DNA of 64,000 nt from Denitromonas iodatirespirans (lineage in GTDB: Bacteria > Pseudomonadota > Gammaproteobacteria > Burkholderiales > Rhodocyclaceae), in assembly GCF_018524365.1 (NCBI RefSeq), contig NZ_JAEKFT010000001.1, forward strand, positions 62,001 to 126,000, read 5' to 3'. Each line of letters begins with the position of its first letter. The stretch's first letter is position 1. The notes beneath the pieces were generated by a model. The model made no database searches and had not been told where the DNA came from. It was given only the letters and a program-made list of their open reading frames with translations. Of the stretch, positions 15,257-36,630 are shown in pieces. The position numbers were made by a program, and so were the translations under genes.

Positions 15257-15661
15257 TTACTGGCCGATGCTCAGCGTGCGCTGGAGCAGCGTGCGGGCGG
15301 TGTTCATCACCTCCGCGTTGGCTTGATACGACCGCGAGGCGGAGATCATGTTGACCATCTCCTCCACCACGTTGACGTTGGGCATTTCGACATATCCCTC
15401 GCCGTTGGCGGCGGGGTTGGCCGGGTCATAGACCATGCGGCCGGGCTCGGCGCTCTCGACGATCTGGTTGACCTTGACACCGACCGAGCTGGCGCCATCG
15501 ACCGCCTCGGCCGAGAACACCACCTGCTTGGCCTTGTAAGGCTGGCCGTCGGGGCCGGCCACACTGTCGGCGTTGGCCATGTTCGAGGCGGTCGTGTTGA
15601 GGCGCACGGACTGGGCATTGAGGGCCGAGCCGGCGATCTTGAAGACATTGAGCATGCTCAT
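15257..15661 (-). CDS. flgC: flagellar proximal rod protein FlgC
   Basis: A 134-residue FlgC of family length. The N-terminus [20 protein letters not shown] with [12 protein letters not shown], a central KAKQVVF, and the C-terminus [20 protein letters not shown] identify it. It is a proximal rod subunit. It is separated from flgB, its usual close neighbour, by a 277-base gap filled by an inverted-repeat element whose arm ends six bases before ATG 15661. No strong ribosome-binding site is visible except an AGG within that arm. Confidence 0.94.
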
Positions 15662-15666
15662 GATAA

Positions 15667-15933
15667 GGGCCTGCGACTATTGGTTTGGGGGTCGCGCTCG
15701 GGTCTATTGGCGTGCAGGGCAAGGCGCGCCGACGCGGTCTGGGTGGCTCCCAGACAAGGAGGCGCAACGCCGCCATGCGCGCCAATAGACCCGAGCCCTC
15801 CGGGTTGTTTCCAAATGGCTTCGCCACTGCGTTGCACTCGTTGCCAAGGGGACCCGCCCTTGGCTGCCTCGCGCGCCTTGTTGCGAAGCCATTTGGAAAC
15901 AACGCGATCCCCCAAACCAATAGTCACAGGCCC
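15667..15933. repeat. nested inverted-repeat element 1 between flgB and flgC (two core units)
   Basis: Outer arms 15667-15696 and 15903-15933 are inverted copies with one substitution and one indel. Inside are two back-to-back units. Unit A has 20-base arms (15696-15715 with 15777-15796). Unit B has exact 21-base arms (15804-15824 with 15883-15903). Each unit carries CAAGGCGCG, a small hairpin and GCAACGC. Unit A reads GGCAAGGCGCGCCGACGC, then AAGGAGGCGCAACGC. The element fills nearly the whole gap between the flgB stop and the flgC start. Confidence 0.9.
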
Positions 15934-15938
15934 TCTCC

Positions 15939-16343
15939 TCACTGGCCCTGAACCGCAGACTGCATGCTGCGCAACAGGCCGTTGATGAAGGTGATGCTCG
16001 CTTCGTAGTGCAGCGCGTTCTCGGCAAAGGCGGCGCGCTCCACATCCATATTGACGGTGTTGCCATCGACGCTCGACTGCTGCTCGGTGCGATAGCGGGC
16101 GGCCGCTTCCAGCGGATTGGCCGTGGTGCCCGATTGATGACCGCGTGCGGTGGTGGCCAGGGCCAGCGGGCCGAGCCGGGAACCGAGCGCGCCGGACAGC
16201 GCGGCCTTGAAGTCCAGGTCGCGCGCCTTGTAGTTCGGCGTGTCGGCATTGGCGATGTTGGACGACAGCAACTGCTGGCGATAGGCGCGGATGTTCAGCG
16301 CGTTCTGGTGGAACTGCAGTGCGTTGTCGAGCCGGTTGGTCAT
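15939..16343 (-). CDS. flgB: flagellar proximal rod protein FlgB
   Basis: A 134-residue FlgB, first gene of the leftward rod/hook operon. The N-terminus (MTNRLDNALQFHQNALNIRA, then SSNIANADTPNYKARDLDFK) is characteristic, and the C-terminus (MDVERAAFAENALHYEASIT) forms the second rod helix. It is the most proximal rod subunit, next to FliE and the MS ring. AGGTG lies shortly before ATG 16343. Upstream lie an FlhDC-type box with a -10 hexamer and an overlapping sigma-54-like match. Confidence 0.95.
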   Translation of the reverse strand: MTNRLDNALQFHQNALNIRAYRQQLLSSNIANADTPNYKARDLDFKAALSGALGSRLGPLALATTARGHQSGTTANPLEAAARYRTEQQSSVDGNTVNMDVERAAFAENALHYEASITFINGLLRSMQSAVQGQ

Positions 16344-36387: not shown

Positions 36388-36630
36388 TTCAACCTAGAAA
36401 CCGTAGTTGGACGCGCCCGAGTGTGCGTTTGGCGGGCTGTCTGGCAAGGCGCGACGACGCACAGCCTGCACGCTGTAAGGAGGAGCAACGCGGCCAGGCG
36501 GCGCGCCAGACGTGCAATCGGGTGCGTAGCGCTGTCACCCACCGGGTGATCGGCCTCGAAGCCGAAAAGGTTTGCATGTTCAATACCTTGCTCTTGGGCA
36601 CAAGCGGTCAACTGCGGTTTCTAGGTTCAA
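36388..36630. repeat. inverted-repeat element 2 between arsR and motC
   Basis: Outer arms 36388-36409 and 36609-36630 (core AACCTAGAAACCG) are inverted copies with two mismatches. The interior has one unit like those in element 1: GGCAAGGCGCGACGACGC, a small hairpin (CAGC/GCTG), then AAGGAGGAGCAACGC. The unit is flanked by degenerate arms (about 36412-36434 with 36500-36526). The rest of the gap 36325-36781 holds the ars operator, an eight-G run (36694-36701) and no gene. Confidence 0.85.

Follow-up and report, generated by a model that had tools for sequence, protein, structure and literature searches.

Bacterial MITEs with IS5-family ends are short and gene-free, carry terminal inverted repeats, and occur in many copies, with empty sites and an autonomous IS whose ends match theirs. 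The Chunjie MITE of Geobacter uraniireducens is, according to a review, 235 bp long and situated in an operon (PMC10969869). A different kind of repeat is represented by REPs, REPINs/BIMEs and RAYT/TnpA-REP systems, in which multicopy hairpins with units of 20 to 40 nt often stand in converging pairs. In TIRYT elements (Di Nocera 2013) a tyrosine transposase is accompanied by long or double palindromic TIRs, whose reported motif is GGGGWSAS, and the same work describes CGTC-tagged REPs that lack a dedicated transposase and in which CGTC is the unpaired end tag of an 8- to 9-bp stem (PMC3733652). In addition, two Y1 subclasses are reported to have no REP-like partner (PMC6006769).

Here, we describe a gene-free mobile element of 267 bp that is inserted between flgB and flgC in the 64,000-nucleotide stretch of Denitromonas iodatirespirans DNA that we analysed (the window). 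The gap between the two genes is 277 bp in this genome, compared with 2 to 39 bp in all 29 other loci and 13 to 16 bp in the eight congeners among them, from which we conclude that the element is an insertion (FlgC was matched in 34 of 41 genomes, and 30 loci including our own were used, with both genes aligned in all of them and some gene starts extrapolated). An original prediction had proposed that a miniature mobile element fills an operon gap that is normally a few bases wide. Both parts of this proposal are borne out, the first by the genome copies, the empty sites in congeners, the target repeats of related elements and the IS5-family ends of sister copies that are described below. We consider it likely (with a probability of about 0.72) that the element is a non-autonomous one of the MITE type that is mobilised in trans, that its hairpins have a role as single-stranded DNA and that its arrival moved a GGAG away from the flgC start.

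Table. Features of the flgB-flgC element and its surroundings (positions in the window)
Feature	Position	Strand	Size or score	Basis
Whole element, type 2, double unit, GGGCCTG...CAGGCCC	15667-15933		267 bp	congeners have empty sites
Left outer arm	15666-15691	+		repeat search
Right outer arm	15909-15934	+		repeat search
Hairpin unit A, AAGG of core at 15721	15699-15793	+	94.6 bits, E 1.1e-20	covariance model
Hairpin unit B, converging on unit A	15806-15901	-	63.8 bits, E 3.3e-13	covariance model
Conserved core of unit A, AAGGCGCGCCGACG - inner hairpin - AGGAGGCGCAACGC	15721-15770	+		alignments
flgB	15939-16340	-		Pfam PF00460
flgC	15257-15661	-		Pfam PF06429 and PF00460
GGAG adjoining flgB stop, presumed ancestral Shine-Dalgarno of flgC	15935-15938	-		congener gaps
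AGG within outer arm, 8 nt upstream of flgC start	15670-15672	-		sequence
Second member in the window, type 1, single unit, TTCAA on both sides	36393-36625	+	233 bp	unit at 36424-36514

The outer arms (26 nt, 96% complementary in a repeat search) enclose two units whose own arms measure 25 nt in unit A (15696-15720 and 15772-15796, 92% complementary) and 27 nt in unit B (15801-15827 and 15880-15906, 93% complementary). The prediction had the nested arms and the two units right; only the lengths that it gave (about 30 bases for the outer arms, 20 and 21 for those of the hairpins) need to be replaced. As it also claimed, both units carry the core, and this runs on the + strand in unit A and on the - strand in unit B (covariance model and alignment), so that the units converge. 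No transposase gene, IS5 or other, lies inside the element (15667-15933), as had been foreseen. Non-coding and short, with terminal inverted repeats, further copies and empty sites, the element resembles bacterial MITEs with IS5-family ends, and differs from them in the one or two strand-specific hairpins that members of the family contain and in a core that is common to elements with other ends. The window copy has no clean target duplication, its left flank being ATAA and its right flank TCTCC.

The hairpin unit is about 95 nt long and has the core AAGGCG.G..GACG - inner hairpin - AGGAG..GCAACGC. Out of 185 pattern matches, we retained 64 units that diverge from one another; invariance of the core is partly by construction, the units having been found by the core pattern, while arms and inner stem lie outside that pattern. 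In these 64 units, 77.4% of the arm cells pair (53.1% in shuffles), 618 cells are changed on both sides (263 shuffled), and the covariation score is 0.580 as against 0.182, with none of 500 shuffles as high. When the partner arm is slid along, the score falls to 0.12-0.18. The 59 units of the covariance model gave 79.7% pairing, 590 double changes (241 shuffled) and a score of 0.613; this model omits five units with weak or interrupted arms (L008, L082, L098, L118 and L145), and the result holds on all 64 with the slightly lower score. This is strong evidence that the arms kept pairing while most of their letters changed.

The prediction had made the existence of a repeat family hang on further copies in the genome and on covariation between their arms, and both were found. 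At an E value of 0.01 or less, the covariance model detects 26 hairpin units in the genome of the window, the element matches eight other places by blastn, and the exact core pattern occurs 15 times as against none in the reversed control. Within the 64 kb, the model at an E value of 1 or less finds three units (both units of this element and a third at 36424-36514), and both exact motifs occur together only here and near 36443-36491, while two short motifs searched with mismatches allowed are not in excess in the window (8 versus 8.0 expected and 8 versus 10.0 expected).

Elements carrying the hairpin come in three architectures. Type 1 comprises 45 elements of 232 to 238 bp in which CC lies 53 nt from AAGG in 44; an identical 3-bp repeat flanks 34 of the 45 (14.4 expected, with a maximum of 23 in 2000 shuffles), the left flank is TNA in 42, and the next base is complementary in 43 (19.4 expected). 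By its described length and its setting in an operon, Chunjie may be a type 1 member. Type 2, to which the window element belongs, has converging units 9 to 14 nt apart in 33 of 36 doubles, and among neighbouring unit pairs overall 37 converge and 1 diverges. Type 3 comprises 17 single elements of 162 to 167 bp with TAG ends, mostly at CTAG, and the end lies 54 to 57 nt from AAGG in all 17. Of 72 double-unit ends, 31 have TA just before the base that is 54 nt from AAGG; elsewhere in the profile (35 to 89 nt) the count is mostly 0 to 8, with lesser peaks of 14 at 50 nt and 11 at 38 and 55 nt, and 19 of the 72 ends have no TA in the 8 bases searched. In all three types, the base after the target repeat is near 54 nt from AAGG. 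By eye, the element ends are of CTAGGG, CTAGTG and CCTAG types, and some CTAGTGG ends contain GTGG (the REP foot, at the hairpin base, is GT[AG]G). Two type 1 elements (L014 and L017) reach about 310 bp because their left arm houses another palindromic repeat, GC-rich and about 78 bp long (CCCACGCTCACT...).

Which enzyme moves the type 2 elements is suggested by their ends. Elsewhere in the genome, five ends belonging to sister copies are exactly TAGGGTCTGTTGACA or TAGGGCGTGTTCACA, while that of the window copy, GGGCCTGTGACTATT, has diverged from the IS form. The pattern CTAGGG[CT]CTGTTnACA was found in 51 viral-contig stretches, 7 of which have an inverted partner 823 to 865 bp away. The two enclosed proteins that were tested are IS4/5-type transposases (Pfam), and one of them, that of L462, is an IS5 transposase (NCBIfam NF033580, 266 bits); the other five stretches match it by tblastn at 28% to near identity, several of them being near copies and the match being split or partial in L454, L473 and L465. 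In a further 5 of the 51 stretches the partner is 269 to 292 bp away, and 4 of these 5 contain covariance-model hairpins. Since the ends of the sister copies match those of an IS5-family IS, the enzyme is most likely a trans-acting transposase of the IS5 (DDE) type. This match holds for type 2; in viral contigs, neither the ends of type 1 (0 of 8) nor those of type 3 (0 of 25) had an IS partner. No IS-length end pair was found in the genome of the window (9 type 2 and 20 type 1 end matches), a draft of 201 contigs, in which IS copies can be lost, and no clear one by eye among 90 end matches in the complete genome G440; the IS transposase had no match at 1e-8 in 508 other sequences.

The mismatches that the arms tolerate bear on which form of the hairpin matters. 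With arms aligned as DNA and no kind of mismatch favoured, G.T mismatches outnumber A.C mismatches by 309 to 40 in 129 units of all types with differing left arms. With similar arms removed, the ratio in type 1 arms is 75:5 in 24 elements (20 for, 1 against), and in the inner part of 23 type 3 elements it is 56:14 (15 for, 5 against and 3 ties). Hits of the covariance model, which itself prefers G.T, gave 40:4 in 33 units of doubles and 16:3 in 11 singles, figures that for this reason carry no weight here. A broader count had put the outer 20 bases at 68:54, hardly any excess, and we had entertained an outer 20 bp without strand asymmetry; this idea was dropped, as that count probably ran past the element ends and the defined outer 20 positions of the 23 type 3 elements give 17:5. 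The excess of G.T over A.C most likely reflects selection on the fold of one strand. In other words, the hairpin would be selected as a single-stranded nucleic acid, the bias being counted without correction for shared ancestry; these counts do not separate a role as single-stranded DNA from one as trans-acting RNA. Orientation relative to GC skew (56 plus and 88 minus of 144, P = 0.01; 41:51 and not significant in strongly skewed loci) is opposite in direction to what exposure on the lagging-strand template predicts.

Taken together, these results lead us to suggest that an IS5-type DDE transposase acting in trans would move the element by its matching ends, and that the hairpin, which keeps a constant spacing of about 54 nt to the end of the element, is more likely to work as single-stranded DNA in the life cycle of the element than as cis-acting RNA. 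One-strand selection in elements with DDE-type ends is unexpected of ordinary MITEs.

The hairpin is widespread. In a family sample, the exact pattern was present in 14 of 150 genomes and the reversed control gave 0 in every row; in a class sample, the covariance model at an E value of 0.001 or less found units in 80 of 274 genomes, representing 66 of 222 genera, with copy numbers that are lower bounds, since no more than 15 candidates per genome were scored. Scanning named genomes yielded at least 118 stretches with the core, far outside the order. Among the 80 titled matches listed are Planctomycetota, Nitrospirae, Omnitrophota, Desulfuromonadales, Desulfobulbus, Endomicrobia, Thermoanaerobaculia, Eisenbacteria, Krumholzibacteriia, Binatia, Fibrobacteres and many Beta- and Gammaproteobacteria. 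Those outside the Proteobacteria are almost all MAGs, some of which may be binning errors; one is a complete chromosome, that of Candidatus Velamenicoccus archaeovorus, which we take to be a member of the Omnitrophota. Searching with the two cores, as the prediction had proposed for the genome and related Rhodocyclales, does recover a family, but one that reaches far beyond this group. On plasmids it is nearly absent, as is the case with REPs (type 1 in 2 of 72,556 records, type 2 in none, with one query for each type).

This distribution raises a broader possibility, tentative and in our judgement rather unlikely, that the single-stranded hairpin, recognised by its structure on one strand, is an independent module, present in about ten phyla as judged by record titles, that has been joined at about 54 nt to ends of the TNA, TA and CTAG types and is the missing partner of an enzyme that processes single strands, for example an orphan REP-associated tyrosine transposase. 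In 14 loci there was no Rfam match at the gathering score, and in 15500-16100 the hits were two microRNA families, both far below it. We found no description of the hairpin family in open-licence texts (figures excluded and listings partly incomplete), where the core 14-mers were found in one unrelated fly paper and where, among 48 papers containing an end string, the 25 listed all matched through a single 10-base string. The family thus appears to be undescribed, Chunjie perhaps excepted. With its very strong covariation, its presence in 80 of the 274 class genomes and the lack of a match in these Rfam scans, it would explain unannotated intergenic DNA in many genomes.

A related but distinct view is that a REP-associated tyrosine (Y1/HUH) transposase encoded elsewhere in the genome uses the hairpin as its single-stranded DNA substrate, much like a REP, with the ends being secondary. 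Strand-specific folding and the converging pairs (36 double units in 60 loci), which recall REP doublets, are in keeping with this, as is the presence in the genome of the window of one intact REP-associated tyrosine transposase (NF047646; below the Pfam cut-off). Y1_Tnp was detected at an E value of 0.01 or less in 25 of 28 hand-picked hairpin-rich genomes (23 of 23 of good quality) as against 6 of 14 named control genomes, and relatives of the genome's own Y1 occur in 44 of 80 hairpin-positive but only 45 of 194 hairpin-negative genomes (P = 9e-7). The report of Y1 subclasses that lack a REP-like partner (PMC6006769) also speaks for it. However, no close relative of this Y1 exists in 36 of the 80 hairpin-positive genomes, and the co-occurrence may just reflect genomes that are rich in mobile elements of both kinds. 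Around relatives of this Y1, 30 loci were free of hairpins, about half of them in hairpin-positive genomes, as were another 50 Y1 loci from hairpin-rich genomes (80 loci, of which 78 are distinct, two being in both sets). Furthermore, the type 1 elements have target duplications, which are not expected of Y1 transposition. We therefore regard this explanation as improbable. A Y1 transposase as linked partner is rejected (0 of 78 distinct loci), while one acting in trans could still be involved, and one-strand selection makes it possible to test concretely if there are substrates for the orphan REP-associated transposases.

These results also qualify the likeness to REPs that the prediction had drawn. 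The multicopy hairpins in converging pairs are shared, but the units are about 95 nt rather than 20 to 40 nt, type 1 elements have target duplications, and no transposase gene adjoins any hairpin at the Y1 loci. The TIRYT motif GGGGWSAS is not the core found here, and no Y1 adjacency was found. As in the CGTC-tagged REPs (PMC3733652), there is no dedicated transposase and CGTC is present, in our case on the bottom strand of the core beside the inner stem; judged by eye, it lies inside a longer stem here, where theirs is an unpaired end tag.

The intact REP-associated tyrosine transposase lies at G000:C69:111161-111673 and has no hairpin in the stretch examined around it; its two relatives (C47:90808-91302 and C118:54358-54831) each bear an in-frame stop.

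It might be argued instead that the hairpin is a cis-acting RNA (an mRNA stabiliser, an antiterminator or a translation control) that makes insertions into operons tolerable. The flgBC message corresponds to the - strand of the element, whose fold has an energy of -203 kcal/mol as against -133 +/- 5.5 in 100 shuffles (z -12.8; none of the 100 as low), and G.T is tolerated on one strand. In message order, the locus reads flgB stop, GGAGA, element, TTATC and flgC ATG, and in the folded transcript GGAG and AUG meet at the base of the stem. GGAG also occurs in the short flgB-flgC gap of 5 of 8 congeners (L199, L201, L202, L203 and L205), and so the GGAG here is probably the ancestral Shine-Dalgarno, now about 270 nt upstream of the flgC start. 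Against a cis-acting role, single elements are not co-directional with tandem neighbour genes (26 same and 41 opposite, P = 0.09, n = 67, with simple gene calls and with 7 of 151 units that have a possible mate left out; an earlier count that included doubles gave 26 and 32), and no Rfam family was matched. Because single elements show no bias towards the sense strand, we think such a role for the hairpin improbable.

To return to the element presumed to be moved in trans, its insertion would have left the ancestral GGAG and the flgC start about 270 nt apart, in a transcript that could fold as one long hairpin. The prediction held that the element could hide the ribosome-binding site of flgC, and this is plausible. 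The AGG that it pointed out is present in the arm, and the element lies five rather than six bases before the flgC start (ATG at 15661-15659, - strand). Folding could equally restore the distance between GGAG, kept at the flgB stop, and the flgC start, and so may bring the two back into proximity. A hairpin is known to bring the Shine-Dalgarno close to the start codon in phage T4 gene 25. The flgBC insertion amounts to a natural experiment on the tolerance of an operon to large hairpins.

Finally, that we are dealing with an ordinary MITE, palindromic by descent, whose arms are kept alike by recombination or replication slippage and not by selection, is the idea we doubt most: MITEs commonly form hairpins (PMC10969869) and the two units of one double (at C2:316165) point the same way, which would follow from the inversion of a unit between its arms, but template correction should, we infer, not favour G.T over A.C (309:40), the asymmetric core recurs across groups whose arms differ, and both the lengths and the end-to-core distance are nearly fixed.

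Several individual copies deserve mention. In the double at C2:316165 (G000:C2:316165-316409; L005 1501-1745), whose units share one direction, the 3' core of the first unit is changed, again as though one of the units had undergone inversion. Another double-unit copy (L006 1501-1697; G000:C138:18704-18900) lies, by eye, within what we take to be a glyoxalase-like reading frame. In two genomes of one genus (G440 and G329), the end pattern is AGGGAAnCTCTGCACGA, with 90 end matches at up to two mismatches in a 2.45-Mb genome, and the end pairs of G440, which by eye lie near 250, 150 to 180 and 20 to 80 bp, suggest a stepwise loss of hairpin units.
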